Source of the DNA: Chelydra serpentina
Taxonomy: Eukaryota; Chordata; Testudines; Chelydridae
Direction of reading: 5' to 3'
Assembly (NCBI GenBank): GCA_037349315.1
Contig: JBAIAC010000059.1
Coordinates: 26,134,501-26,198,500, forward strand
Length of the DNA stretch: 64,000 nucleotides
The notes under the pieces are model-generated. The model was not told the DNA's origin. It did not search any database and saw only the letters and a list, made by a program, of their open reading frames with translations. Positions within the stretch are counted from its first letter, which is position 1, and the number at the start of each line of letters is the position of its first letter. The translations under genes and the position numbers were made by a program. Below, piece by piece: positions 6,145 through 44,673 of the stretch.

Positions 6145-6553
6145 GGCCTGGTCTACAGTACGTGATTATGTCGAATTTAGCTGCATTATATCGAATTAAA
6201 ACTAAATCCATCCACACAACCAACCCAGTTTTGTCGACTTAAAGGGCTCTTAAAATCGGTTTCTGTACTCCCCCTCGGCAAGGGGAGTAGCGCTAAAATC
6301 GACATTGCTATTCTGAATTTGAGGTACTGTGGATGCAATTCGACGGTATTGGCCTCCAGGAGCTATCCCAGAATGCTCCATTGTGACCGCTCTGGACAGC
6401 ACTTTCAACTCAGATGCGCTAGCCAGGTAGTCAGGAAAAGCTCCGGGACCTTTTGAATTTCATTTTCTGTTTGGCCACTGTGGTGAGCTCATCAGCACAG
6501 GTAACCATGCAGAGCCCACCAGCACAGGAGACCATGCAGTCCCAAATGCACAA

Positions 6554-7062
6554 ATGAGCTCTGCATGGACCGAACAGGAGGTACTGGATCTCATCACAGT
6601 ATGGGGAGAAGAATTTGTTCAGGCAGAACTCTGTTTAAAAAAAAGGAATGCAAACATATATGCAAAAATCTCCTGGGGCATGACGGAAAGGGGCTACTCC
6701 AGGGACACACAGAAGTGCCATGTGAAAATCAAGGAGCTCAGGCAAGCCTACCAAAAGACTACAGAGGCAAATGGTTGCTCCGGGTCACAGTCCCATACAT
6801 GCCGCTACTACGATGAGCTGCATGCAATTCTGGCGGGGGATGCCACCACTACCCTACCACTGTCCGTGGACACCTGCAAAGAGGGAGTCTCACGGAGCAG
6901 GGAGGATGATTTTTTGGAGGAGGAGGAGGACAGTGCACAGGCCGCAAGTGGTGAATCCGTTCTCCCAGGAAGCCAGGAACTGTTCATCACCCTGGAGCCA
7001 ATACCCTCCACCCCCTCCCAAGGCAGGCTCCCGGACCATCATGCCGGAGAAGGCACTAACTG
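6554..7062 (+). pseudogene. Harbinger A Myb/SANT-like protein, exon 1
   Basis: Encodes the accessory DNA-binding protein of Harbinger, which in this superfamily binds the transposon ends and helps the nuclease reach the nucleus. Residues ~3-100 form the trihelix/Myb-like domain: SAWTEQEVLDLITVWGEE, IYAKISWGMTERGYSRD, HVKIKELRQAYQKT, CRYYDELHAIL. An acidic stretch (EEEED, near residue 123) and SQELFITLEP follow. The donor is CTG|GTGAGT at 7062/7063. Joined to the acceptor near 7940 the phase is off by one base, unlike Harbinger C where the same join is in frame, so a small indel near the donor probably disabled the gene. Confidence 0.75.
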
Positions 7063-7110
7063 GTGAGTGTACCTTTGTAAATACAATACAGGGTTTAAAA
7101 GAAAGTGTGT

Positions 7111-7460
7111 TTAATAATTCATTTGCCCTGAAGACTTGGGATGCATTCGCATCCAGTACAGCCACTGGAAAAGTCTGTTAACGTGTCTGGGGATGGAGCA
7201 GAAATCCTCCAGGAACATCTCCATGAAGCTCTCCTGGAGGTACTCTGAAAGCCTTTGCAGAAGGTTTCTGGGGAGGGCTGCCTTATTCCGTCCTCCATGG
7301 TAGGACACTTTACCCCACCAAGCCAGTAGCAAGTAGTCTGGAATCATTGCAGCGGACAAAGCATGGCAGCGAATGGCCGTGGGTTTTGGTCACATTCCAA
7401 CAACATCCAGTTTTTATCTCTCTGTGTTAGCCTCACGAGAGTGATATCATTCATGGGCAC
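7111..7460 (-). pseudogene. Conserved third Harbinger frame, copy A (frameshifted)
   Basis: I do not recognise this protein. Read from TTTCAACCAG|GTGCCC on the minus strand it gives PMNDITLVRLTQRDKN, then NPRPFAAMLC. After a one-base shift it gives AMIPDYLLLAWWGKVSYHGG, KAALPRNLLQRLSEYLQES and HVNRLF. The frames at 39426-39722 and 31548-31850 are clear homologues. It lies antisense between the two Myb exons, on the nuclease strand and downstream of the nuclease. The 5' edge is an acceptor-like site at the same place in all three copies, which suggests an exon rather than a complete gene. The frameshift near 7360 and an extended C-terminus indicate decay. Confidence 0.7.
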
Positions 7461-7939
7461 CTGGTTGAAATAGGGGAATTTGTTTAAGGGGACAAACAGA
7501 GGTGTCCATCACGCTGGGCTGTTTGCGTTTGGCTTAAAGGGCTCAGCCCTGATCAGGGCCATGTGGTGAGGGGTGTGTGTGAAGCGATCATCCCAGAGAG
7601 ACTGCTGGCCCTCCTTTTAAATGGCCAATCCACCAGGCATTGCTTGGTATGGGAAAGGAGGGCACCTCAGTTCGAAAGCATTGTAATGAATGCAGAAGCA
7701 GAACCCCGCATGTCCCTAGGGCTTACCATGGCTTCCTGCAAGCTGAATTCTGTTGCCCAGCCGCGTGTGATGCAGTCACACCAAACTGGCAGGCACTCAG
7801 TATAAAAGGCAAAATGCGCCCTTGTACAGAAAGAACATGTGCTATGTACTATGAATTGCTTGTTTAACTGAGAAAGAGTCTCCCTTTTGTTCTCTAAAAT
7901 GTATCTTTTAAAACTCTACCCTCCCTTTTTCTCCTCCAG

Positions 7940-8403
7940 CAGGTGCAAATATTTCAACGCGCCCCCTATCATCTCTGTACCAGAGGCTGGCCCAGATTAG
8001 AAGGCGGAAAAAACGCACTCGAGACGACATGTTTGCAGAGTTTATTCAGTCCTCCTGCACTGATAGGGCACAGCTGAATGCATGGAGGCAAACGATGGCA
8101 GAGTCCCAGAAAGCGTTCAATGAACACGATGAGAGGAGGGAGGCACGTGATGAGAGCAGGCAGGATGCCATGCTCAAGCTGATGGGGGAGCAAACTGACA
8201 TACTCTGCTGTCTGGTGGATCTTATGAGGGAAAGGCAGCAACAGCACAGACAGCCGCTGCAGCCCCTGTATAACCACCCTCCCTCCTCTCCAAGTTCCAT
8301 AGCCTCCTCACCCAGACACCCAAGAACACGGGGGGAGGCTCCGGGAACCCACCCACTCCATCCCAGAGGATTGCCCAAGCAGCAGAAGGCTGGAATATCC
8401 TAA
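7940..8403 (+). pseudogene. Harbinger A Myb/SANT-like protein, exon 2
   Basis: The acceptor region is TTTTTCTCCTCCAG just before 7940. The frame then reads LAQIRRRKKRTRDDMF, a basic helix probably acting as a nuclear localisation and contact segment. A long charged helix follows (DERREARDESRQDAM, QTDILCCLVDLMRERQQQ), then a proline/serine-rich tail ending at the stop at 8401-8403. The equivalent exon in Harbinger C begins QIRRRKKRTRDDMF. The exon is open, but its phase does not match exon 1 as it now stands. A candidate polyadenylation signal AATAAA lies near 8496. Confidence 0.75.
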
Positions 8404-8625
8404 ATTTTGATTTGTAGTGTGTCCTTGTCCTTCCCTCCTACCCCACCCCACCCTGGCTACCTTGTGATTTATCTCCCTGTGTTTTTAATCAACTAATAAA
8501 TAATGGTTTTGAAACAATAGTGACTTTATTTCCTCTGCAAGCTGTGATCGAAGGGGGGGAGGGCTTACAGGGAATTAGAGTCAACAAAGGGGGTGGGTAG
8601 CATCAAGGAGAAACAAACACAACTG

Positions 8626-9758
8626 TCACACCGTAGCCTGCCCAGTCATGAAACTGGTTTTCAAAGCTTCTCTGATGTGCAGCATGCCCTGCTGTGCTCT
8701 TCTAATTGCACTGGTGTCTGGCTGCGTGAAACTGGCTGCCAGGCGATTTGCCTTGACCTCCCACCCTGCCATAAACGTCTCCCCCTTACTCTCACAGATA
8801 TTGTGGAGCACACAGCATGCAGCAATAACAATGGGAATATTGGTTTCGCTGAGATCTAACTTAGTCAGCAAACAGCGCCAGCGAGCTTTTAAACATTCAA
8901 ATGCACACTCTACCACCATTCTGCACTTGCTCAGCCTATAGTTAAACTGCTCCTTACTACTGTCCAGGCTGCCTGTGAACGACTTCATGAGCCATGGCAT
9001 TAAGGGGTAGGCTGCGTCCCGGAGGATAACTATTGGCATTTAAACATCCCCAACAGTAATTTTCTGGTCTGGGAAGTAAGTCCCTTCCTGCAGCTGTTCA
9101 AACAGACCAGAGTTCCTGGAGATGCGAGCGTCATGCACCTTTCCCGGCCATCCCACATTGATGTCGGTGAAATGTCCCTTGTGATCCACCAGTGCCTGCA
9201 GCACCATCAAGAAGTACCCCTTGTGGTTTATGTACTGGCTGCTCTGGTGGTCCGATGCCAGGATAGGGATATGCGTTCCGTCTATCACCCCACCAGTTAG
9301 GGAATCCCATTGCAGCAAAGCCATCCACTATGGCCTGCACATTTCCCAGAGTCACTACCCTTGATAGTAGCAGGCCAGTGATTGCGTTGGCTACTTGGAT
9401 CACAGCAGCCCCCACAGTAGATTTGCCCACTCCAAATTGATTACCGACTGTCAGACGTTGCAAGCTTCCACAGAGCTATTGCCACTCGCTTCTCAACTGT
9501 GAGGGCTGCTCTCATTGTGGTATCTTTGCGCTTCAGGGCAGGGGACAGCAAGTCACAAAGTTCAAGGAAAGTGGCCTTACGCATGCGAAAGTTTCGCAGC
9601 CATTGGGAATCATCCCATACCTGCAACACTATGCGGTCCCACCAGTCTGTGCTTGTTTCCCAGGCCCAGAATTGGTGATCCATGGCATGAACCTGGCCCA
9701 ATGCCACCATGATGTACCAATTTCCACATGCTGTGCTTCTAGGAACGTCTGTGTCCAT
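8626..9758 (-). pseudogene. Harbinger A DDE nuclease (HARBI1-like), broken
   Basis: Encodes the transposase nuclease of the PIF/Harbinger superfamily (DDE_Tnp_4 fold). Landmarks appear in order: ETSTDWWDRIVLQVWDD, LCDLLSPALKRKDTTMRAAL, QFGVGKSTVG, IDGTHIPI with the first catalytic Asp, INVGWPGKVHDAR with the second Asp, PLMPWLMKSF, VECAFECLKARWR with the Glu, and a C-terminal IREALKTSF. At least two frameshifts and a stop after KITVGDV split it into three or four pieces. The conserved GRLK next to the catalytic Glu is changed to ECLK. It cannot make an active enzyme. Confidence 0.85.
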
Positions 9759-9989
9759 GTCCTCATCACTATCATCATCGCGCTGTCGTCACTTCCTCGC
9801 CCGGTTTTGCAGGCTCTGCACATACTGCTAGATAATGTGTGAGGTATTTACAACAGTCACAACTGCAGCGGTGAGCTGAACGGGCTCCATGCTTGCTGTG
9901 CTCTGGCGCACAGGTAGTCCAGGAAAAAAGGCGTGAAACGAAGGTGAGCAGGAGAGAGCAGGACAGCAGAGTTGCAGCAGAAGCAGTGG

Positions 9990-10035
9990 CGACAAACTTC
10001 TGCAGATCCAGACTAACACGGCTACCCCTCTGATA
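9990..10035 (+). mobile_element. 46-bp Penelope end inserted in Harbinger A
   Basis: The sequence CAGACTAACACGGCTAC and CCCTCTGATA is the terminal motif of the Penelope elements in this window (compare 41904-41935 and 45022-45054). It is flanked by a perfect 15-bp direct repeat, CAGCAGAAGCAGTGG, at 9975-9989 and 10036-10050. Only the last few dozen bases of the element were inserted, preceded by a short run of unassigned bases. Confidence 0.75.
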
Positions 10036-10525
10036 CAGCAGAAGCAGTGGTATACGAGGACAGCTACCAGTCCTATTGCACCGTCTTCTGCAGCAGACAG
10101 GAGAGAGCAGGAGAGCAGAGTTGCAGCGGAAGCGGTGGAGCCGTATATCATTTACGAGGACGGTTAGCAGTCATACTGTACCGTCTGCTGCAGAAAAAAG
10201 GCGTGAAATGATTGTCTGCCATTGCTTTCACAGAGTGACGGGCGACTGACGACTTGCATCCAAAACCACCTGTGGCAATACTTTTGCCCCATCATGCATT
10301 GGGAGCTTAACCCAGAATTCCAATGTGCGGCGGAGACTGGGGGAACTGTGGGATAGCTACCCACAGTGCACCGCTCCGAGAATTGATGCTAGCCACGGTA
10401 CTGTGGACACACTCCGCCAACTTAGCGTGCTTAGTGGGGACACACACAATCGACTGTATAAAATCTCTTCTGAAAAATCGACTTCTATAAATTCGACATA
10501 ATTTCGTGCTGTAGACATATCCTCA

Positions 10526-12331: not shown

Positions 12332-13367
12332 TCTGTGCAAGCTTATATGGCGAAAACTGAAGGATGACTTCGAGAACTTCCGGAAAGAAAAGCTCCTTAA
12401 AACAGCTGAATCATGCAAGAGCCTCAGGACATGCAAGCGGGAATTGAAGCTGTATAGATTGAGCGTAACAGCATTGAAGAACAAGGATGGAGAGACAGTA
12501 ATCGACAGAGCAGGGATGGAGGAGGTCTGCAAGGACTTCTACACAGAACTGTTCAAATAAAGAATCAACGTCCCCCTCCCAACCCTCGAAGAGTCAGAAG
12601 AACGTGTCCCCCCAGTAATCGTCAGCGAAGTCCGAAGCGCACTACACCAGATGAAGAAGGGAAAAGCTCCAGGCAAAGATGGAATAACGTCAGAAATGAT
12701 GTATGCAGGAGGCGAAAAACTTTGGAAGGCCCTCGCTTTAAGATTCAGTCGATATCTTGAAGAAGGAAAAATATCATCAAGCTGGAAGGAGTCGAATACC
12801 ATCTTGCTGCACAAGAAGGGTGATCGAGAAAATCTTAAGAACTACCGCCCTATATGCCTGCTCTCTTACATCTACAAGCTCTTTACAAAGGTGATAACGA
12901 ATCGACTTTCGCAGAGTCTGGATGAACAACAGCCGAGAGAGCAGGCAGGGTTTCGAAGAAATTTCAGTACAATCGACCATATATTTACCCTTAGCCAGCT
13001 CCTAGAAAGAGCGAGGGAATACAAACTTCCGCTGTGCATTGCTTTTGTCGACTATGAAAAGGCCTTCGATAGCATTGAGTTTAACGCAATATTAAAGGCG
13101 CTCGCAGAGCAGGGCATTAACACGCAGTACATTATTGTGTTGAAGGAAGCGAATACTGGATGTACAACAGACCTTACTCTCCTTGAAACTCCCCTCCGCA
13201 TCCCAATTGAGAAAGGCGTAAAGCAAGGAGATACAATTTCACCGAAACTATTCACCTCCTGCCTCGAAATGGTTATGAACAAGATCAATTGGAGGAGTGG
13301 TATCAACATAAATGGAGAAAGATTATCTCATCTCAGATTTGCAGACGACATTGTACTAATTGCCGAA
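12332..13367 (+). pseudogene. RTE reverse transcriptase domain (inverted half)
   Basis: Reverse transcriptase of an RTE-clade non-LTR element. Landmarks in order: KMKKGKAPGKDGITSEM-like start (from 12651), ILLHKKGDRENLKNYRPICL, EQAGFRRNFSTIDHI, CIAFVDYEKAFDSIE with the first catalytic Asp, KGVKQGDTISPKLF, and LRFADDIVLIAE with the catalytic FADD box. One in-frame TAA at 12558-12560 interrupts an otherwise open frame from ~12282 to the break. The upstream endonuclease is absent. Few lesions suggest a fairly recent insertion. Confidence 0.85.
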
Positions 13368-13378
13368 AAGTGTGACAC

Positions 13379-14399
13379 ATGGCCAGAAAAGGGTTAAGCA
13401 GATCACAGGCCAAATAACCCAGAGTCAACCTTTAGAGACATGTTAGAAAAGTTTATAAATGAAAATTAGGGCCATGCAATTAGGTTAGACTAGAACTTTG
13501 AAATGCAAGCCTGTATTGTTAGGGAATTAGAAGTTATATTAATCGTGTATGTTTGCCTATATCAGTTTCTGTCTAGTACCATAGCTATTGATGCAGAGAT
13601 CAAAAGGGAATGTTAACATTTAGATGAACCTTGGTTGAAGTAGTGTCATTGTTTATATTACTTCTGGGGGGATTCTGCACCCCTGTGGGGGAGCTGAATT
13701 CATTTGGCCCACATTTTTCTGTGCTCCTCCACCCCCGGCACAGAAAAATGCAAAAAAAAATAATAAATCAGCCAGAGGATATGTTCCTCCTCCCTGGTAG
13801 CCCAGGCAGTGAGTCTGTTCCAGTGTGCCTGGACTTGGAGCACCTTCAGAGATGGGGGAGAGGGGCCAGGTGTGCCTGCGTGATCACAGTTGGGGAGCGG
13901 GGCTGAACATATGTGCGTGCCAATGAGAGAGAGAGACTCCCTCTCACCCCTTGCTACTGCAGCTCATGCGGCTTTTTTATGCATGAGAAAGGCTAGAGGC
14001 ACAAATGTAGCAGCCCTTCCTGAGTTAATTGATTCATTCTCTGAGGCACTAGCAGCCTGACTGTGTAGTTAGTAACATTGTTAAAGTTGCTTGTGATGGT
14101 TAACTATCATGTTTCTATTGTTCTTCAACGGTTCCCATTCTCAGTCAATTCCCCCAAGAGCATAAAACCTGTTAAAGTTTTAAGGCCCCTACATTGCCAG
14201 AGTGATTTAAAGGAGCCTTATTATAAATGACAGTAAGGGACTCCTGAGTTAGGAAGATCTATGTGCTTTCTCACTGTTTTCCTGTGCCAAAGTGGCACAA
14301 TGGGGTTAGATTACAGCTCAGGATTTATTTTACTTATTTTTTAAAAATAGACTGAGAGGGCAAATAAAACTTTTACCAAGCAGTTAACAAAATGTCAGG
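13379..14399. other. Mostly unassigned; possible MITE scrap near 13660
   Basis: The stretch at about 13660-13770 (GGGGGATTCTGCACCCC, then GCACAGAAAAATG) looks like a fragment of a short DNA-transposon repeat common in reptiles, but I cannot define its ends. The rest shows no gene or repeat I can name. An AT-rich patch lies near 14320-14345. Confidence 0.35.
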
Positions 14400-30335: not shown

Positions 30336-30942
30336 AGGTAAGAAAGGCGGGAAGACAAGTAAGAAGTTGAGGAGGAAGACACAGCAAAGTGGGGAGAGGA
30401 CACATGAAGGGAAAAAAGGACCTAACTGGGATAAAAAAGGAAAGTCACCCCCCAAATGAGGAGCAGTGTTGAGGGTAAGCTTTGGGAAGGAGGTAGCTGT
30501 ACCAACAGTAGGAAAGTTTATTCTCTGCCTATATTCTTAGGCCTTGGCTACACTCACGAGTTACAGCGCAATAAAACTGCCTGCAGCGCTGTAACTCAGT
30601 AACTGTCTACACTCGCAAGGCACGTGCAGCGCTGCATCTCCTCAGGTACAGCGCTGCATGTACTCCACCTCCCCGAGAGGAATAACGTTTGTTGCGCTGC
30701 TGCTGGTGCGCTGCGGCTACAGTGTGGCCACCCAATGCGCTGTTATTGGCCTCCAGAAGTATTCGGAAGTATCCCACAATGCCTGTTCTAGCCACTCTGG
30801 TCATCAATTAGCACTCTACTGCCCTGGCCTCAGGTGACCAACTGCCACTCCGACCCTTTAAATTCCCTTGGAATTTTAAATATCCCCTTCCTGTTTGCTC
30901 AGCCAGGCGTGGAGTGCTCTCAGCGCATCTTTCCAGGTAACC

Positions 30943-31422
30943 ATGCCTCCACGTGCGAGACGAGCCCCAGTATGGAGCAATGGCGAGCTGCTGGACCTCA
31001 TCACTGTTTGGGGGGAGGAAGCTGTCCAGTCCCAGCTGCGATCCAGCCGGAGGAATTTCGATACTTTTGGCCAGATATCAAGGGCCATGATTGAAAGGGG
31101 CCATGACCGGGACGCAATGCAGTGCAGGATAAAAGTAAAGGAGCTGCAGAGTGCGTACCGCAAAGCCCACGAGGCAAACAGCCAAGGTGCTCCCCGCAAA
31201 ACCTGCCAATTCTACAAAGAGCTGGATGCAATACTTGGGGGTGACCCCACTACTGTTCCGAGCACCACCGTGCACATGGGAGAGCGGGATGAGGAGGAGG
31301 AGGAGGAGGAGGGGGTTGAAGAAAACAGAAGCGAGGGTGCTGTGGCTGGGGGAGACACCCCTGACTCCCTGGGTGCATGCAGCCAGGAGCTCTTCTCAAG
31401 CCAGGAGGAAGGGAGCCAGTAG
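30943..31422 (+). CDS. Harbinger B Myb/SANT-like protein, exon 1
   Basis: Starts MPPRARRAPVWSNGELLDLI; the ATG at 30943 is the first before the conserved domain. The trihelix domain continues with VWGEEAVQSQLRSSRRNF, MIERGHDRDAMQCRIKVKEL and CQFYKELDAILGG, followed by an acidic run of nine Glu/Asp residues (near residue 115) and SQELFSSQEEGSQ before a TAG. It is more diverged than the A and C versions. The splice join to 32140 is uncertain: GTGCAT at 31373 would give the right phase but is a weak donor. Confidence 0.75.
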   Translation: MPPRARRAPVWSNGELLDLITVWGEEAVQSQLRSSRRNFDTFGQISRAMIERGHDRDAMQCRIKVKELQSAYRKAHEANSQGAPRKTCQFYKELDAILGGDPTTVPSTTVHMGERDEEEEEEEGVEENRSEGAVAGGDTPDSLGACSQELFSSQEEGSQ

Positions 31423-31547
31423 CAGCGGCCGGTACGCGCTGGGAGAGAAAGAGAAGAACAGGTTCGCGGTAAGCAGCTTTTATTTTCGGGAAGGAGTTTT
31501 TTCGGTGTGGGGTCCTTGAGCGAGGAGGGTTTGGGCTGCATGCATGC

Positions 31548-31850
31548 CTAGATGCGGAAGAGCACATTGATGTGGTCTATCACATCGGAGAAATCGGCCA
31601 CTGTAATCTCTTCGAAAGTCTCAGCCAGGACGTGGGCAATGCGTTTGCGCAGGTTTATTGGGAGAGCCGCCGTGGTCCTTGTCCCATTCAGGGTAACGTG
31701 TCCGCGCCACTGTGCTGCGAGGGGCGGGGGGACCATTTCTGCACACAGGCAAGCTGCATATGGGCCAGGGCGGAAGCTGCATTGCAGTAGAAGACCCTCA
31801 CTTGCTTCCCCGGACACCCTCAGCAGCGAGATATCTTCCAGGACGAACTC
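31548..31850 (-). CDS. Conserved third Harbinger frame, copy B
   Basis: I do not recognise this family. Read from TTTTCCACAG|GAGTTC on the minus strand: EDISLLRVSGEASEG, then RPGPYAACLCAEM, QWRGHVTLNG, AALPINLRKRIAHVLAETF, EEITVADFSDVIDHINVLF and a stop. It aligns residue for residue with the copy in Harbinger C (DITLMRITETE, TPGPYAAMLC, AWRGKVSYHGG, KAALPVNV, SFSEISAGDYTSIPIHIDRLF). Identity is modest and many changes are conservative, which argues for past selection on protein. It lies antisense between the Myb exons, and the leading acceptor suggests an exon of a nuclease-strand transcript. Confidence 0.75.
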   Translation of the reverse strand, partial: EFVLEDISLLRVSGEASEGLLLQCSFRPGPYAACLCAEMVPPPLAAQWRGHVTLNGTRTTAALPINLRKRIAHVLAETFEEITVADFSDVIDHINVLFRI

Positions 31851-32139
31851 CTGTGGAAAATGTGGGGATAGTGTTCATTGTAGGTTCCCCCTGCAGCTGT
31901 TGGCTCTCCCCAAGGCACAGAAACCCGTCGGACAGTACATCCGTGAAACAATCAGTCCCCCTTTACCCTGTGCTTACTCACCATTTTGGGGCTCCCATGG
32001 GTTCTGTGCGCTCTGTTTGGGACGGAAAAATTGTGCTGTTTTGGAAACTGTGTGCGCCCTCCTTAAGTGTGGGGGAATCATTGCTCTGTCTGGCATAAAA
32101 CAATGATGCCTCTGTTAAATGTTGCATTTTGCCTTCCAG

Positions 32140-32708
32140 ATGCAACCTTGAGATCTCCTCCATCCTTCTTATCACGGGCTGAGAGACTCCAAAGGCTCAG
32201 GAAGAGGTCCAGAAGAACGAAAGAAGACATGCTGCAGGAAGTTATGAAACAGTCTCTTAAAGAGAATCAAAAGGCTCGGGAGTGGAGGGAGAGTGAAAGC
32301 AGGCTCCGCCAGGAAAACGCAGTGCAGCGGCAGCAAAGCATGCAGCTCCGGCACGAAAGAACAAAGGAACTGATTAGCATCTTGGCGCACCAAGCGGACT
32401 CTATCCAGGCGCTCGTCGCCATGCAGGCGGAGCAGTACCGCCCCCGCCCCCCCCTGCAGCCAGTGTCCCAAAACACTTGTGCCCCCATGTCACCACCTGC
32501 CCACTTCACCCAACATCCAGGTTCGTATCGCCCACACCAGATGCCCCCAACACCTGTAGCTTCACCAGACAGCCCTGGAAACTATGACCCTTACCCACTG
32601 CACTCAACTCCAATCCCGAATTATAGACATTCTGAAGTGCAGCACTCACTGCACAGCACTCCAGACAGGAAGCCCGAGTATGAAAGCAGGACATACCATA
32701 CCCTGTGA
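32140..32708 (+). CDS. Harbinger B Myb/SANT-like protein, exon 2
   Basis: Acceptor GCATTTTGCCTTCCAG immediately before 32140. Encodes RLQRLRKRSRRTKEDMLQEV (basic helix, matching QIRRRKKRTRDDMF in A and C), then a long charged coiled-coil-like stretch (KENQKAREWRESESRL, RHERTKELISILAHQADS). A Pro/His/Ser-rich tail ends at 32706-32708. The frame is open throughout. An AATAAA lies near 32800. Confidence 0.75.
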
Positions 32709-32980
32709 TTGAACCCTTCCCCACACCACCCACCACCCCCTTGCCCTTTCTGTCTCACAAGCAGTTGTGTTTCTTTTTAATACATGTATTTTCTCTGTAA
32801 TAAACGCATTCTTTGGATGTGCAAACAGTCTTTATTATTGCATAAGGAAAAAAGATACCTTAGCCCAGGAAAGAAACAGGCAACGCAAGTGAGCTGAGCA
32901 TGCACAAATCAGCTTAGCAAAGACAGATAACTGATAACATTGGAACCACTTCACTTCAGGGTCGTGCAGGGCAGCACACA

Positions 32981-34228
32981 TTACTGGTGGTTTTCAGCCT
33001 CAAATTTCTCCCTCAAGGCATCCCTGATCCTTGCAGCCCCACGCTGGGCCCCTGTAATAGCCCTGCTCTCTGGCTGTGCAAATTCAGCCTCCAGGTGTTG
33101 AACCTCTGAGGTTCATGCCTGAGTGAACATTTCACCCTTCCCTTCACAAATATTATGGAGGGTACAGCACGCGGATATAACCGCGGGGATGCTGTGTTCG
33201 GCCAAGTCCAGCTTCCCATATAGAGATCGCCAGCGGCCCTTCAAACGGCCAAAAGCACACTCCACAGTCATTCTGCACCGGCTCAGCCTGTAGTTGAACC
33301 GTTCCTTGCTGGTGTCAAGGCTCCCTGTGTAGGGTTTCATGAGCCACGGCATTAAAGGGTACGCAGGGTCTCCAAGGATCACAGTGGGCATTTCAATTTC
33401 CCCTACCGTGATCTTCCGGTCTGGGAAAAAAGTCCCGGACTGCATCTTCCGGAACAGGGCAGTGTTCCAAAAGATGCGTGTGTCATGCACCTTTCCAGGC
33501 CAGCCTGCGTTGATGGCAATGAAACGCCCATGGTGATCCACAAGCACCTTGAGAACCATGGAGAAATACCCCATCCGATTAATGTACTCGGATGCTAGGT
33601 GGGGTGGTGCCAGAATAGGAATATGCGTCCCATCTATCGCCCCTCCGCAGTTAGGGAAACCCATTTGTTCAAAGCCAGCCACAATGCCCTGCACGTTACC
33701 CGGAGTCACGGTTCTTCTGAGCAGGATGTGATTAATGGCCTTGCAAACTTGCATCAGCATGACTCCAACAGTCAACTTTCCCACTCCAAACTGGTTCGCT
33801 ACTGATCGATAGCAGTCCGGAGTTGCGAGCTTCCAGATTGCAATAGCCACCCGCTTCGCCACCGTCAGGGCAGCTCTCAATCTCGTGTCCTTGCGCTGCA
33901 GGGCGGGGGCGAGCTCCTCACACAATCCCATGAAAGTAGCTTTTCTCATCCGAAAGTTCTGCACCCACTGCTCGTCATCCCAGACTTGCATGACAATGTG
34001 ATCCCACCACTCTGTGCTGGTTTCCCGAGCCCAAAAGCGGCGTTCCACTGTGCATAGCATGTCCGTGAATGCCACAAGCAAGTTCGTGTCGTACGTGTTT
34101 TGCGTGACAATTTCATCATCATCGTCGGACTCCTCGCTGTCATTGTGGATCTTAAGGAAGAGCTCGACTGCCAAACGTGACGTGCTGGCGAGACTCGTCA
34201 GTATTTTGCTCACCAGGTCGGGATCCAT
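32981..34228 (-). pseudogene. Harbinger B DDE nuclease, one premature TGA
   Basis: A 415-codon frame with the ATG at 34228 and the natural TAA at 32981-32983, interrupted only by TGA at 33113-33115 (codon 372). There Harbinger C has Trp (FMQGWEVE), so the lesion is probably TGG to TGA. Landmarks: RRFWARETSTEWWDHIVMQV, QFGVGKLTVGVM, GGAIDGTHIPILAPP (first Asp), INAGWPGKVHDTRIF (second Asp), ILGDPAYPLMPWLMKPYTGS and VECAFGRLKGRWR (Glu). All three catalytic residues precede the stop, so a truncated protein of 371 residues would keep the DDE core but lose the last ~43 residues. Confidence 0.88.
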
Positions 34229-34613
34229 TTTCCCGCTGACTGAAATGGAGCACAGATCGCGCTACAAAGAAACAGTTGAAAAATGGCGCAAATTGTGGCC
34301 GGAAACACAGGGATTGCTGGGATGCGAAGCGATGCATCACGGGGCGTTGGGACAGGACCCTGAATGCACCATACTCCATGCCCCCTTCCCACAACCCACG
34401 GCGCCAGAATTGGAAGAGGTGTTCTGTGGGATACCTGCCCATAATGCACCACTCCCAAAACTGCTGCAAGTGCCGCAAATGTAGCCACGTTAGTGCTCGT
34501 TACTGCGCTGGCGGCTGCCAGTGTGGACAGGCTGCAGCGCTTTCCCTACTCAGCTGTACGAAGACGGGTTTAATTCACAGCGCTGTACATCTGCAAGTGT
34601 AGCCAAGGCCTTA

Positions 34614-35511: not shown

Positions 35512-35892
35512 TAAGGGTATGTCTACACTACGGTACTAGTTCGATTTCTGTGAAACCGAACTTGTGAACCCGATATTTCCATGTCGATTGTTCGAATCCA
35601 CACCAGGGATGTTTATTCGAATGTCCGAGTCCACAGTAGGGGGGCAAGCGTCGACATTGCAAGCGGTGCACTGTGGGTAGCTATCCCACAGTTCCCGCAG
35701 TCCCGCCTGCCCACTGGAATTCTGGGTGTAGCCCCCAGTGCCTTGTGGGAACGAAATTGTGTCAAGGGTCGGTATACGTACATTTCGTCACTCGACCCAC
35801 ACTTCCGCCTTCCCTACGTGAAAGCGCCGGCGGGGAATGAATTCGCGCCCTTTTCCTGTGGCTGATAGCTCGGACGCCACTGGACAGTGAGC

Positions 35893-37176
35893 ATGGAGAC
35901 CTCCGCGATTATCGCAGATGTTCTGTCCGTAGCCAACAACTCGCGCCTTATAGCGCACCTTTTCCAGACTCTGTTGCAGAGAAATCGGGAGAGGAGACAA
36001 CGTAATCTCCGGGAGTACTTAGACTTTGAAAGGGGCATTGATCTCTTGCAAAGCACTGGACCCCGGACCCTAGAGATCATGGTGGCAATGGGTCATGTTG
36101 ATCCCGTGGAACGGCGATGCTGGGCAAGGGAAACAAGCACTGACTGGTGGGACCGCATAGTGATGCAGGTATGGGATGAGTCCCAGTGGCTGCGAAACTT
36201 TCGGATGCGTAAGTGCACTTTTATGGAACTTTGTGAGTTGCTGTCCCCTGCCCTGAAGCGCCAGGACACCCGGATGCGAGCTGCCCTCACTATCCAGAAG
36301 CGAGTGGCCATAGCCCTGTGGAAGCTTGCAACCCCTGACAGCTACCGGTCAGTAGCGAACCAATTTGGAGTGGGCAAGTCTACCGTGGGGGTTGCTGTGA
36401 TGCAGGTAGCCCGTGCAATCGTTGACCTGCTGCTCCACAAAGTAGTGACCCTGGGAGACGTGCAGGCGATCATAGATGGCTTCGCTGCAATGGGATTCCC
36501 AAACTGCGGTGGGGCCATAGATGGGACACACATCCCTATCCTGGGACCGGAGCACCAGGGTGGCCAGTATATTAACCGGAAGGGCTATTTTTCTATGGTT
36601 CTGCAAGCACTAGTGGACCACAAAGGACGTTTTACAAACATCAATGTTGGGTGGCCAGGAAAGGTTCATGATGCTCGTGTTTTCAAGAACTCTGGTCTGT
36701 TTAGACGCCTGCAACAGGGGGTTTATTTCCCCGATCACAAAATCACTGTTGGGGAGGTGGAGATGCCAACAGTGATCCTGGGGGACCCTGCCTACCCGCT
36801 AATGCCATGGCTCATGAAGCCATACACGGGAGCCCTGGACACTGAAAAGGAACTCTTTAATTACCGCCTGAGCAAGTGCAGAATGGTGGTGGAGTGTGCC
36901 TTTGGCCGTCTCAAGGCAAGATGGCGAAGCTTACTTACTCGCTCCGACCTCAGCCCTAAAAATATCCCCATTGTGATTGCGGCGTGCTGTGTGCTCCACA
37001 ATCTGTGTGAGATCAAGGGGGAGACATTTATGCAGGGCTGGGAGGTTGAGGCAAATCGACTAGCAGCAGATTACGCTCAGCCAGACACCAGAGCCATTCG
37101 AAGATCACAGCGGGAGGCGGTCCGCATCCGTGAAGCTTTGAAAGCTCGCTTCCAGACAGAGCGGGTTAACCATTGA
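35893..37176 (+). CDS. Harbinger C DDE nuclease (HARBI1-like), intact
   Basis: A 427-residue open frame starting METSAIIADVLSVANNSRL. PIF/Harbinger nucleases cut at the element ends and insert into a 3-bp target with the help of the Myb-like partner. Landmarks: RRCWARETSTDWWDRIVMQV, LCELLSPALKRQDTRMRAAL, a helix-turn-helix-like YRSVANQFGVGKSTVGVAV, CGGAIDGTHIPILGP (catalytic Asp 1), INVGWPGKVHDARVF (Asp 2), ILGDPAYPLMPWLMKPYTGA, VECAFGRLKARWR (Glu) and a C-terminal AIRRSQREAVRIREAL. Length matches HARBI1-type nucleases with an N-terminal extension. It lies inside TIRs with a target duplication, so it is a transposon gene and not host HARBI1. Confidence 0.93.
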   Translation: METSAIIADVLSVANNSRLIAHLFQTLLQRNRERRQRNLREYLDFERGIDLLQSTGPRTLEIMVAMGHVDPVERRCWARETSTDWWDRIVMQVWDESQWLRNFRMRKCTFMELCELLSPALKRQDTRMRAALTIQKRVAIALWKLATPDSYRSVANQFGVGKSTVGVAVMQVARAIVDLLLHKVVTLGDVQAIIDGFAAMGFPNCGGAIDGTHIPILGPEHQGGQYINRKGYFSMVLQALVDHKGRFTNINVGWPGKVHDARVFKNSGLFRRLQQGVYFPDHKITVGEVEMPTVILGDPAYPLMPWLMKPYTGALDTEKELFNYRLSKCRMVVECAFGRLKARWRSLLTRSDLSPKNIPIVIAACCVLHNLCEIKGETFMQGWEVEANRLAADYAQPDTRAIRRSQREAVRIREALKARFQTERVNH

Positions 37177-37946
37177 CTGCTCCACTTCCGTAAACAGATA
37201 CTGGACCTACCCCTGTCCCTTTACACATGTCCCGTTGCCCATCCTCCCATTACCAACCGCCTTCCCCCTCCTTGGATCAACGCTGTAAAGTCACGGTAAA
37301 GGAAAGATTTTTTTGTTTGAACGTGTTCCTGTACTTCTTCTTGGGTAATGATTATCACCGTGTAGGCATACGGCGGTTGGGGGGAGGTTTGGTTGGGGAA
37401 CACTTCCCTTCAAAGGGGAAGCTGTTGATCCTGCCCAAAGCGCAGTGCCAAGAGGTGTTCCGCTTGCTTATAGGGACCATCAACCTCTTCTAATCCCATG
37501 TGTGTGTGGTGGTGTCTATGTGCCTTTTACGTATTGAGTATCGCCAACGGATCACACAGTGCATTGATCTATCCAGCAGGCTACTGTCAGCCGCAAAAGA
37601 TCAGCGACCACCCTCGCCAAACATACAGTGCACCACCCAACCCCCAACCCCACGTTTAGAACGTAGAAACCAGCACAACGAAGGAAAGGTGTGCTTAATG
37701 CATGCAATGTGTACTGTGCTTGTCACTTCAGCAGTTAACCTGTCTGCACCCTCGTTTGTGCTCCCATTCTCTGCACTTAAAAACTATGTTAACCACTACC
37801 CAGAGATACAAACTGTCCCGTTTAAAACACTCAGGGAAACATTGGTGAACCAAAAAACAAGATTTATTCAACAAAACAGTAACTTCACATGGAACCTGGG
37901 AAGGGAGGTGCTCAGGGGTGCTGCTGGATGGAGAGGAGGGAAAAGT

Positions 37947-38428
37947 CTATGGTTTTGGGAATGACAGCCTTCTGCTGTTGCAGCGGTCTGCAGGGGTGGA
38001 TTGAGTATTTCCACGCACCCTGGCTCCCCTTGTCCTAGTGACTTTTGGGGAGGAAGCCACTGGACTTGGTGGCGGGGGAGGGCGGCTTGAAAGAACGTAC
38101 AGAGGCGCTCTTTCCTCATGTCTCCTGTCCTGGAGAATATCCACCAGGCGCCGGAGCGTGTCTGTTTGCTCCCTCATGATTCCCAGCATTGTTTGGGTCG
38201 CCTGCTGATCCTCCTGCCGCCACCTGTCCTCACGCGCTTCAGCCCTCTGCTCCCGTTCCCTGGCTGCTCGCTCGTACCGTGCGAAGTCCTCTCTGCGCTG
38301 TGCCGCCTCCCTCTGTGACAGCATCACTAATTCCGAGAACATGTCGTCCCTGGTTCTCTTTTTGCGCCGCCTTATCTGGACTAGGCCATGGGTGGGAGAA
38401 GCACGGGTTGGGTGGGAGACACTCACAG
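37947..38428 (-). CDS. Harbinger C Myb/SANT-like protein, exon 2
   Basis: Acceptor TTTATCCCACAG|CT on the minus strand. The frame reads VSVSHPTRASPTHGLVQIRR, RKKRTRDDMFSEL, then a long Glu/Arg/Gln-rich helix (ARYERAAREREQRAEARE, QTDTLRRLVDILQDRR) and a proline-rich tail ending at 37947. With exon 1 the protein would be about 379 residues. The charged helix is a likely dimerisation or partner-contact segment (inference). Confidence 0.82.
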
Positions 38429-38799
38429 CTGTGGGATAAATGAAAGGGAGTGAATTCCTCAGACAGATACTTTTTCAAGAACAATGACCATACTCTTTCA
38501 CCGTGAATAGGACCAAAGACAGTGCCTATCACATGTACACGTACTACAAGGTCAAATAATATGCCTTAAGGCTGAGTGAGTGTCTAGGGTCCCGGTATAC
38601 GGATCCCAGAGGCCTTTCCGTACACAGAAAATCACCTCTCTGAAAACCATGGTAAGCTGCTTACTTACGACTGCTGTGAGATTGCTTCACAGCACTGCTC
38701 TACTCCCATGTCTCCCTCAGTGTTCCTGGCGGCGGTCAGTAGCTGCTGCTGGCCAAACCGGTAATCTACGGCGGCTGTCCTAAACCCCCCCCCCCCCGT

Positions 38800-39270
38800 C
38801 CGCGTTGCCGCTGCAGGGAACCAAAAATGCCCGGGAACCGCTCAGCGTGAACGGCTCGCCTACCCTTCCCCCCCCCTCAGCGTGGCCGCTCCAGGGACCC
38901 AAAAATGGCCGCGAACTGCTCTGCGTGAACGGCTCGCCTACCCTTCCCCCCCCTCAGCGTGGCCGCTCCAGGGACCCAAAAATGGCCGCGAACTGCTCTG
39001 CGTGAACGGCTCGCCTACCCTTCCCCCCCCTCACCGTGGCCGCTCCAGGGACCCAAAAATGGCCGCGAACCGCTCTGCGTGAACGGCTCGCCTACCCTTC
39101 CCCCCCTCCGCGTGGCCGCTCTAGGCAATGTAAAATGCCCGCGAACCGCTCAGCGTGAACGGCTCGCCTACCCTCCCCCCCCTCAGCGTGGCTGCTCTAG
39201 GGAATCAAAAATGCCCGCGAACCGCTCAGCATGAACGGCTCGCCTATCCTATCCCCGGTTTAGCGTTGCC
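38800..39270 (+). repeat. 77-bp minisatellite in the Harbinger C Myb intron
   Basis: About six copies of a 77-base unit containing CGTGAACGGCTCGCCTACCC, TCAGCGTGGCCGCTCCAGGG and AAAAATGGCCGCGAAC. Periods at 38882, 38959 and so on are exact; the outer copies are more diverged. GC-rich with several CpGs and C-runs. There are no unique spacers, so it is a tandem repeat. Confidence 0.9.
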
Positions 39271-39425
39271 GGTCCCCGGGACTGTCACTTCCCGCGCACC
39301 GATATGCACTACTGGTTTTGCTCCAGAGCCCCTACCACCACGCGGTAACGTAAACTGCCGGGTGTCTGTCTGTAAGGGGAAAAGGAAGCATGCAGTATAC
39401 TAATTATACTACTCATTCGAACCAG

Positions 39426-39722
39426 GACCCCATGACTGATATCACTCTGATGAGGATTACGGAGACAGAGAAAAACTGCATGCTGAGTCAATGCAAGCAA
39501 ACCCCGGGGCCGTATGCTGCCATGCTATGCAAGGCAATGATACCAGAGTACCTGCTGCTTGCATGGCGCGGGAAAGTATCCTACCATGGAGGAGACAATA
39601 AGGCAGCTCTCCCAGTGAACGTGCTAGACAAGCTATCGCTGTACCTTCAAGACAGCTTCTCTGAGATCTCTGCTGGTGATTACACCTCTATCCCCATACA
39701 TATTGACAGACTTTTCGAATAG
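39426..39722 (+). CDS. Conserved third Harbinger frame, copy C (intact)
   Basis: A 98-codon segment after the acceptor-like CGAACCAG|GACCCC; upstream ATGs in frame exist from 39390. Reads DPMTDITLMRITETEKN, TPGPYAAMLCKAMIPEYLLL, AWRGKVSYHGGDNKAALPVN, LDKLSLYLQDSFSEI and PIHIDRLFE before the stop. No domain is recognised; predicted mostly helical. Homologues lie at the same relative place in Harbingers A and B. It sits antisense inside the Myb intron, downstream of the nuclease on the same strand. It may be a third gene, a terminal exon of a spliced nuclease-strand transcript, or a captured host exon. Confidence 0.78.
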   Translation, partial: DPMTDITLMRITETEKNCMLSQCKQTPGPYAAMLCKAMIPEYLLLAWRGKVSYHGGDNKAALPVNVLDKLSLYLQDSFSEISAGDYTSIPIHIDRLFE

Positions 39723-39834
39723 TTGCACGGGAAAGCGACTCCAAGGTGAAGCGCATAAGGCCAATGAAGCCACAGTTACAGAGCGCTAACACACCATAAC
39801 TATTGTATTGAAAATAAATGTCTAAAACACTGAC

Positions 39835-40492
39835 CTGATGATCCCTCTCCTGATTCCTGGTCAGGAATGCTGCCTTGGGAGTGTTCGAAGGGCAGCGCAG
39901 TCAGGGTCAGGAATAGTTCCTGGCTGTCGGGGAAATCTCCAGGGTGACCGCTTTCGATTGCCTCGTCCCCCTGCCCTCCTTCCTCTTCTTCGCCGTCAGC
40001 GAAAACCTCCTCCGATGTGTCCGTAGAATGGACCCCATCATCGGTGTCCACGGACACTGGTGGGGTAGTTGTTGCCGCACCACCGAGCATGGCGTGCAGT
40101 GCCTCGTAAAATCGGCAAGTCTGAGGCGCTGAGCCGGAGCGTCCGTTGGACTCTTTGGTCTTTTGGTACGCCTGACGTAGCTCCTTGATTTTGACGCGGC
40201 ACTGCGTAGCATCCCGGCTGTACCCTCTCTCCGTCATAGCCTGTGAAATCTTCTCGTAAATTTTTGCATTCCGTCTTTTTGAACGGAGCTCGGCTAGGAT
40301 GGATTCATCGCCCCACACAGCGATGAGATCCAAAACCTCACGATCACTCCATGTTGGAGCTCTCTTTCTATTCACCGATGGCATCGAAACCACCGATGTA
40401 GAGCTCTGCATCATTGCCAGTGCTGCTGAGCTCGCGACTATGTCCAAAGAGGCAATGTGATTCAAAATGGCCACAGAGGAAAAAGTATTCAA
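39835..40492 (-). CDS. Harbinger C Myb/SANT-like protein, exon 1
   Basis: Encodes the DNA-binding partner of the nuclease. The ATG at 40492 is the first in frame; an inner Met (MPSVNRKRAPTWSD) could also serve. Domain: RAPTWSDREVLDLIAVWGDE, IYEKISQAMTERGYSRDATQ, RVKIKELRQAYQKTKESNG, CRFYEALHAMLGG; then an acidic DGEEEEGG stretch and SQELFLTLTALPF. The donor ATCAG|GTCAGT gives an exon of 658 bases with one base over. Exon 2 supplies two, so the join is in frame. Confidence 0.85.
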
Positions 40493-40951
40493 ATTTTCGC
40501 GGGGATTTCTCTGAGTGGCAGGTCAGAGCATCCGAGTACACAATACTGCCCTGAGCGTCCACCGAGTGGTGCACTGTGGGATAGCTCCCGGAGCTATTAG
40601 CGTCGAATTCCGTCCACAGTACCTCGCATTCGACATGCCCATTTCGATTTTGGCGCTACTCCCCTCGTCAGGGTGGAGTACCGAAATCGATTCAAGGAGC
40701 CCTTAATGTCGAAATAAACTGCTTCCTAGTGTGGACGGGTGAGGGATTAAATCGAGTTAACGCTGATAAATTCGACATAAAGTCCTAGTGTAGACCTGGC
40801 CTAAGACAAGAAGAGATGCAGGACGCTAGAGAATGTACTGGCAGAAGTGAAGGAGAACATGGGAACTCAGACACCTGAAGAGTAATCTAAAGATTAAGCA
40901 GAAGGGATTTTTTGGGAGTCGTCCAGAACAAGCAGTAACTATTTCAACACT

Positions 40952-41935: not shown

Positions 41936-44673
41936 ATGCAGAGCACTGCATTCAGCCGTATGGAGTGGAAATCCATCAATTTCATGAAAAAACTCGCACA
42001 GATACAGACAGATATCATCTTCCTTTCCAACTGCAAACAGATGGACATCATACCAAAAGGACTAACGGTAAAAAATCCATTACAATCTACTTACCACACA
42101 GACTATGCTGAGAGATTGTGCCTCACACTCTCAAAGAAACCACCTGCTCAACATCCTATACAGCAAACAGGGAAAGATTAAGACTGAGCGCTCAAAACTG
42201 GATACTCTTATGGAAAACCAACCTTCCACACAAACTTCTTCATGGACTGACTTTACAAAAACTAGACAAGCCATTTACAACACAAGCTTTGCTTCTTTAC
42301 AAAAGAAAAAGGACACTAAGCTATCTAAACTGCTGCATGCTACAAGGAACCACAACAGCAGTTCCCTTACCCCACCCAGCAATATTGTCAATCTTTCCAG
42401 CTATACTCTCAGCCCAGCAGAAGAATCTGTCCTTTCTCGGGGCCTCTCCTTTTGTCCCTCCAGACCCATGAACATGATACAGTTCTGCGGTGACCTAGAA
42501 TCCTACTTTCGACGTCTCCAACTCAAAGAATTTTTCCAACAGACCTCTGTACAACATACTAACCCACAGAATCCTTCCAACAGACCTCTGTACAACATAC
42601 TAACCCACAGAATCCTTCCAACAGACCTCTGTACAACATACTAACCCACAGAATCCTTCCAACAGACCTCTGTACAACATACTAACCCACAGAATCCTTC
42701 CTACCAAAACTACAAAAAGAAGGATTCTGCGTGGACTCCTCCTGAAGGTCGAAACAACAAATTGGACTTCTACATAGACTGCTTCTGTCGCCGTGCTCGA
42801 GCTGAAATTGTAGAAAAGCAAAATCACTTGCCCCATAACCTCAGCCGTGCAGAACACAACGCCATCAACAGCCTCAGGAACAACTCTAACATCATAATCA
42901 AAAAGGAGGAGCTGTCGTCATCATGCTCCTGAAGCTGAAGCTGACAAAGGAGGAGCTGTCGTCATCATGAATAAGTTGGAATATGAACAAGAAGCTGTCA
43001 GGCAGCTCTGTAACTCCACATTCTACAGGCCTTTATCCTCTGACCCCACTGAGGAGTACCAAAAGAAACTGCACCATCTGCTCCAGAAACTCCCTGGAAA
43101 AGCACAAGAACAAATTTGTACAGACACGTGCCTAGAACCCTGACCAGGTACATTCTATCTGCTACCCAAGATCCATAAACCTGGAAATCCTGGACGCCCC
43201 ATCATCTCAGGCATTGGCACCCTAACAGCAGGATTGTCTGGCTATGTAGACTCTCTCCTCAGGCCCTATGCTACCAGCACTCCCAGCTATCTTCGCGACA
43301 CCACTGACTTCCTGAGGAAACTACAATCCATCGGTGATCTTCCAGACAACACCATCCTGGCCACTATGGATGTAGAAGCCCTCTACACTAACATTCCACA
43401 CAACGATGGACTACAAGCTGTCAGGAACAGTATCCCCAATACTACCACGGCTAACCTGGTGGCCGAACTTTGTGATTTTGTCCTCACCCACAACTATTTC
43501 ACATTTGGGGACAATATTTACCTTCAAGTCAGTGGCACTGCTATGGGTACCCGTATGGCCCCACAGTATGCCAACATTTTTATGGCTGACTTAGAACAAC
43601 GCTTCCTCAGCTCTCGTCACCTAACACCCCTACTCTACTTGCGCTACATTGATGATATCTTCATCATTTGGACCCATGGAAAAGAAGCCCTTGAGGAATT
43701 CCACCATGATTTCAACAATTTCCATCCCACCATCAACCTCAGCCTAGACCAGTCCACACAAGCGGTCCATTTCCTAGACACCAGAGTGCTAATAAGTGAT
43801 GGTCACATAAACACCACCCTATACCGGCAACCTACTGACCGCTATACTTACCTACATGCTTCCAGCTTCCATCCTGGACACACCACACGATCCATTGTTT
43901 ACACCCAAGCTCTAAGACACAACCGCATTTGCTCCAATCCCTCAGACAGAGACAAACACCTACAAGATCTCTATCAAGCATTCTTACAACTACAATACCC
44001 ACCTGCTGAAGTGAAAAAACAGATTGACAGGGCCAAAAGAGTACCCAGGAGTCACCTACTACAAGACAGGCCCAAAAAAGAAAATAACAGAACACCACTA
44101 GCCGTCACCTTTAGCCCCCAACTAAAACCTCTCTAGCACATCATCAAAGATCTACAACCTATCCTAAAAGTTGATCCCTCACTCTCACAGATCTTGGAGG
44201 ACAGACCAATCCTTGCTTACAGACAGCCCCCCAACCTGAAGCAAATACTCACCAGCAACCACACACCATACAACAAAAACACTAACCCAGGAACCTATCC
44301 TTGCAACAAAGCCCGATGCCAACTCTGTCAACATATTGATTCAAGTGATACCATCACAGGGCCTAATCACATCTGCCACGCCATCAAGGGCTCATTCACC
44401 TGCACATCTACCAATGTGATATATGCCATCATGTGCCAGCAATGCCCCTCTGCCATGTACATCGGCCAAACCGGACAGTCTCTACGCAAAAGAATAAATG
44501 GACATAAATCTGACATCAGGAATCATAACATTCAAAAACCAGTAGGAGAACACTTCAACCTCCCTAATCACTCAGTGACAGACTTGAGGGTAGCAGTGTT
44601 GCGACAGATTAACTCCAAAAGCACACTTCAAAGAGAAACTATTGAACTCGAATTGATATGCAAACTAGGTTGA
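41936..44673 (+). pseudogene. Penelope reverse transcriptase-GIY-YIG endonuclease
   Basis: N-terminal pieces: FLSNCKQMDIIPKGLT, IVNLSSYTLSPAEESVLSRG, SAWTPPEGRNNKLDFYIDC, KGGAVVIMNKLEYEQEAV. The reverse transcriptase follows: LLPKIHKPGNPGRPIISGIG, TILATMDVEALYTNIPHNDG (catalytic Asp), GTAMGTRMAPQYANIFMADL and LRYIDDIFIIW (YIDD box). The endonuclease has VIYAIMCQQCPSAMYIGQTG and SLRKRINGHKSDIRNHN. Lesions: a frame change near 42180, the 41-bp repeat at 42541, a small duplication near 42902-42960 (GGAGGAGCTGTCGTCATCAT twice) that shifts frame, TGA at 43141-43143 and TAG at 44134-44136. No active protein is possible. Confidence 0.9.
42541..42704 (+). repeat. 41-bp tandem repeat, four copies, within the Penelope frame
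   Basis: The unit AGACCTCTGTACAACATACT plus AACCCACAGAATCCTTCCAAC starts at 42541, 42582, 42623 and 42664, nearly identical each time. Three extra copies add 123 bases, so the frame on either side is unchanged, but shifted reading inside the array meets TAA at 42642-42644. Confidence 0.92.

Follow-up and report, generated by a model that had tools for sequence, protein, structure and literature searches.

A conserved third coding exon is present in each of three PIF/Harbinger transposons, designated A, B and C, in a 64,000-nucleotide stretch of the Chelydra serpentina genome (contig JBAIAC010000059.1, positions 26,134,501 to 26,198,500), hereafter the window. The exon is under purifying selection, and a BEN-like fold is predicted for its product. 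It is probably an alternative 3′-terminal exon of the nuclease transcript that would yield a regulator isoform.

A third coding exon under purifying selection

The frame of the third exon was open in elements C and B, and in A it was split by one frameshift into two pieces on the minus strand (7454-7356, then 7359-7165). C and B aligned over 95 codons with zero gaps at 39% identity, and the two A pieces were 62% and 66% identical to C, which bears out the shared frame of about 95 codons that a sequence-only reading of the window had described. The placement given there was also seen in all three elements, with the exon lying between two Myb exons on the nuclease strand, antisense to Myb.

Codon analysis ruled out a chance open frame. 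For A and C, NG86 estimates of nonsynonymous (dN) and synonymous (dS) divergence were 0.248 and 0.931, with 22, 17 and 42 substitutions at the first, second and third codon positions. The corresponding dN and dS were 0.668 and 1.644 for B and C, and 0.623 and 1.94 for A and B, with synonymous sites near saturation. In all three pairwise alignments, none of the remaining five frames was free of stops in both aligned sequences. The ratio dN/dS (omega) was 0.22 to 0.35 (median 0.275) between C and 20 intact A-type copies from the same genome, with medians of 0.29 among A-type copies (175 pairs with dS above 0.05) and 0.33 between A-type copies and B (20 pairs, of which two were saturated and omitted). 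A codon model of the 20 A-type copies together with B and C gave an omega of 0.369 and rejected an omega of 1 (log-likelihood -1718.7 versus -1749.1, one parameter); the 20 copies were stop-free picks from 150 rows, a selection that lowers omega somewhat. The test of dN/dS that the sequence-only reading had called for thus gave values well below 1, both between families and among A-type copies.

The frame recurs in many genomic copies of B, C and A-type elements. Searches of the window's own genome, which comprises 806 contigs and 2.28 Gb, used B, C and the turtle A-type protein P0003 as queries, and the rows scored were the best 150 of 13,031 (B), 13,300 (C) and 18,246 (A-type) first-look candidates, a sample biased to good copies. 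By manual count, stops were found in three of 150 B rows, none of 150 C rows and 12 of 150 A-type rows. The third exon was 100% identical in 43 of the 150 scored C rows, which indicates that C spread very recently; family C is very young and abundant. With a more divergent Chelonia query, P0028, a stop was present in 78 of the 150 rows (manual count), indicating that older copies decay. Relatives of the exon occur in several turtle species, and no non-turtle relative was among the named matches listed in three protein searches (one with the best 120 of 158). The earlier proposal of a third conserved component is therefore supported by purifying selection, by further copies and by its presence in several turtles.

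Two side observations concern the copies. The longest aligned pieces of the 3.3-kb C loci L031-L044, among the L031-L060 matches listed, were 97-99.8% identical to the window copy. One copy (G000:C2:38567548-38567865) was stop-free and 89% identical to Chelonia P0028, the next copy being 70% identical; it is perhaps an insertion common to two turtles, in which case it would be an old fossil or else an exon that became domesticated.

A predicted BEN-like domain

The third exon is predicted to fold into five helices and a hairpin, and the five helices expected of a BEN domain are present in this prediction. The structural match to BEN4 of BEND3 (also to BEN3, BANP, BEND6 and NACC1) covered nearly the whole predicted domain, and the GxYAAxL...NKxxL pattern of the exon can be aligned with BEN4. 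Unlike these BEN domains, the transposon exon encodes a single short domain, the last helix of which is acidic in B and C. It scores below the Pfam cut-off, for which reason we refer to it as BEN-like. Pairwise scores of exon against BEN sequences were mixed (35 pairs, 500 shuffles each). The scores of P0003 with BEN4 and of P0021 with BEN4 and BEN2 were reached by zero or one shuffle, and the best BEN pairs of C and B by 16 and 68 of the 500. Sequence searches of PDB, Pfam and NCBIfam with the exon returned nothing useful.

In known BEN domains the last helix inserts into DNA, according to PMC11472053. A basic last helix of the kind that enters the major groove was not found here. B and C each have a net charge of -2 there, and of two A-type copies one has +1 and the other 0; in the host protein the last helices of BEND3 BEN1 and BEN2 are negative too. 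With a last helix of this kind, protein binding by the domain would be as likely as DNA binding.

The predicted fold suggests capture of a host exon. The sequence-only reading had offered two origins, an exon spliced into a transcript of the nuclease strand or one captured from the host; the two are compatible rather than exclusive, as in-frame joins (below) point to splicing and the fold to capture.

A probable alternative terminal exon of the nuclease transcript

Each third exon begins at an acceptor-like 5′ edge in phase 0, TTCGAACCAG/GAC in C, TTTTCCACAG/GAG in B and TTTCAACCAG/GTG in A, as the sequence-only reading had noted. The acceptor context was CATTCGAACCAG/GACCCC in 30 of 30 C loci. 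All 29 B loci (L002-L030) read TTTTCCACAG/GAGTT, with isolated changes farther upstream. In 20 A-type loci the sequence before GTNA was TTTCAACCAG (15 loci), TTTCAAACAG (four) or TTTGAAACAG (one). By a crude score, the acceptor ranked second of 267 AGs in B and fourth of 300 in A, but in C it came only 45th of 301. No ATG lies near the start of the B exon, so the entire B domain needs an upstream exon.

Polyadenylation signals differ between the elements. No AATAAA or ATTAAA was found upstream of 39813 on the nuclease strand of C, and the C nuclease transcript would therefore be expected to reach the third exon; the C signal has an identical 16-base context in 28 of 30 genomic copies, and one further copy retains AATAAA. 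In B and A, an AATAAA lies shortly past the nuclease (at 32836 and 8530), so that their nuclease transcript need not reach the third exon. Of the 20 A-type copies, 19 have ATTAAA or AATAAA no more than 100 bases past their stop. The order of an alternative terminal exon (acceptor, stop, poly(A) signal) is thus present as sequence signals. On the upstream side, both candidate donors (Table 1) score best in their nuclease frames by a simple score, and the C candidate junction matches the turtle protein P0022.

Gene models from turtles contain joins of the predicted kind. Three protein searches gave, among the matches listed, 41 proteins with a full or partial domain, of which nine contain nuclease residues by BLAST. 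In five of these, the nuclease part continues directly with the first residues of the exon: P0007, P0017, P0018 (which includes the nuclease up to residue 190 or so), P0022 and P0038. The same join is apparent by eye in P0030 and P0034. For example, in P0022 (isoform X2 of a Malaclemys protein) the exon follows ...WWDRIVLQ, a junction that corresponds to the best-scoring C donor. As read by eye, models of host genes appear to enter the exon at, or within about one codon of, its 5′ edge in RAB3C X3, CDK6 X2, AASDHPPT X1, MDM2 X4 and ST13 X2; the join is less sure in one GlyT1-like and one KIRREL3 protein. RefSeq isoforms are usually supported by reads. These in-frame joins at the predicted acceptor suggest splicing, and at the level of annotation they agree with the spliced nuclease-strand exon proposed earlier. 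As a side observation, P0020, P0021, P0036, P0037 and P0039 are turtle RAB3C, CDK6, AASDHPPT, ST13 and MDM2 models that end in the transposon exon.

We propose that a transcript spliced from a donor within the N-terminal region of the nuclease into the third exon would skip the DDE domain. The product would be the nuclease N-terminus followed by the BEN-like domain, from about 105 amino acids in B to 190 in C. Through its N-terminus the isoform could associate with the complex of transposase and Myb protein, and its BEN-like domain may contact chromatin proteins or DNA, so that the isoform would regulate transposition. We favor a repressor, because the isoform would be unable to cut and would still have a portion that may meet the transposase complex. 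Other transposases, such as that of the P element, have truncated splice forms that repress transposition. The putative Harbinger isoform resembles these in having an N-terminal transposase part without the catalytic domain, produced by what appears here to be alternative splicing, and differs in that its C-terminus is a predicted folded domain encoded by an exon under its own selection.

Several results weigh against this proposal. A, B and C did not reach the curated cut-off of PF10523 (one genomic copy scored 17.5 versus 23.2 bits), and a profile comparison failed to give sequence-level proof of a BEN domain. Among the gene models, P0024 and P0042 do not fit cleanly, since unrelated residues separate their nuclease part from the exon, and in P0026 the nuclease part extends to residue 255, inside the DDE domain, again with other residues between. 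The join falls inside the BEN-like domain in P0031, SCFD1 (P0029), P0010 and P0025, and a Merlin model places the domain first.

The main rival to a repressor is an accessory transposition factor, in which the domain would bind element DNA, such as 77-bp repeats in C, or host chromatin, and aid the transposase. We consider this doubtful, although the intact exon of the young and abundant family C is in its favor. A GC-rich array of 6.1 units of 77 bp lies in the C intron just upstream of the third exon (38791-39256). BEN domains of BANP and BEND3 bind CGCG-type motifs, and BEND3 binds CCCACGCG, according to PMC11472053 and PMC10206803; the C array contains seven CGCG and nine GCGTG in 504 bases. 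However, an array multiplies the content of its unit, which makes the motif count weak, and no such array was found in A (one 27-bp pair only) or B (nothing). Furthermore, the domain as well as its last helix is acidic in B and C. The repeats as the exon's own DNA target are a lead only. Split alignments suggest that the length of the array varies among genomic C copies.

It is unlikely that the exon is an independent third gene, translated from its own ATG (MTDITL, MNDITL) as a BEN-solo protein unfused to the nuclease. C and the 20 A-type copies do have an ATG as codon 3 of the exon, and C has a 122-aa open frame with an additional upstream ATG. B copies lack an ATG there (EFVLEDI), yet 147 of 150 scored B rows are stop-free; the conserved acceptor context and the several gene models that fuse the exon to upstream exons also speak against this reading. 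A relic, in which a captured exon is carried along and used by chance in host transcripts (exonization), would fit the annotated host-gene isoforms and the decay of distant copies, but is very improbable given an omega well below 1 and a frame that survived as A, B and C diverged.

Relation to known elements and features of the window

Elements A, B and C resemble described PIF/Harbinger transposons both in their proteins, a DDE_Tnp_4 nuclease and a Myb/SANT protein, and in their ends, with terminal inverted repeats and target-site duplications of 3 bp (TSD; Table 1). Pfam matches were to DDE_Tnp_4 (E-values of 7.4e-37 in C and 2.6e-32 in B, the two nucleases scanned) and to Myb_DNA-bind_4 (2.5e-18 in A, 4.8e-19 in B and 2.5e-22 in C). 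Harbinger elements are described with two open reading frames in PMC4482050 and PMC9179366; A, B and C differ in having an extra BEN-like coding exon, which lies within the Myb intron and is read on the strand of the nuclease. The same papers describe a YqaJ exonuclease as the product of the second gene of ISL2EU, which is similar in that it too is Harbinger-like and encodes an additional protein other than Myb. In ISL2EU, YqaJ replaces Myb, whereas A, B and C retain Myb and have the BEN-like exon besides. No literature on a BEN-like exon in Harbinger was found, with subscription papers largely outside the scope and Repbase not searched. The "third ORF" (open reading frame) mentioned in PMC7998251 concerns long terminal repeat elements.

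A selected BEN-like exon in three diverged families, intact in one as young as C, would change the view of how Harbinger elements are controlled. It also offers a testable case of a transposon in which a single gene possibly gives rise to a transposase as well as a non-catalytic isoform, and a possible route by which host genes gain a BEN-like tail. A wider account is put forward tentatively, as somewhat short of an even chance: a vertebrate Harbinger would have captured a BEND3-like BEN domain as an alternatively spliced component making a self-regulating transposase isoform, and the exon would act as a splice trap that seeded CDK6, MDM2, RAB3C and ST13 with BEN-tailed isoforms.

Table 1. Coordinates in the window of the three Harbinger elements, their exons and associated signals (a slash marks a splice junction)
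Feature	Position	Strand	Remarks
BEN-like third exon, C	39426..39722	+	98 aa and stop; phase-0 acceptor before 39426
BEN-like third exon, B	31548..31850	-	100 aa and stop
BEN-like third exon, A	7165..7460	-	one frameshift; stop lost
AATAAA 3′ of third exon, C	39813..39818	+	
AATAAA 3′ of third exon, B	31479..31484	-	
Candidate first coding exon, C isoform	35893..36168	+	nuclease residues 1-92; donor CAG/GTATGG, phase 0
Candidate first coding exon, B isoform	34214..34228	-	MDPDL; donor CTG/GTGAGC, phase 0; prediction only
Harbinger element C	35515..40801	+	TSD TAA; degraded 14-bp terminal inverted repeats
Harbinger element B	30540..34610	-	TSD TTA; perfect 14-bp terminal inverted repeats
Harbinger element A	6145..10522	-	TSD TCA
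Nuclease (DDE_Tnp_4), C	35893..37176	+	427 aa
Nuclease (DDE_Tnp_4), B	33113..34228	-	371 aa
Myb/SANT exon 1, C	39835..40522	-	stop-to-stop frame cut at donor
Myb intron, C	38429..39834	-	donor CAG/GTCAGT, acceptor CCCACAG; inferred from sequence; contains third exon on opposite strand
Myb/SANT frame, B	30880..31422	+	
Myb/SANT frame, A	6431..7066	+	

Elsewhere in the window, long frames at 12561-13397 and 43144-44136 resemble, by eye, reverse transcriptases of other retroelements.
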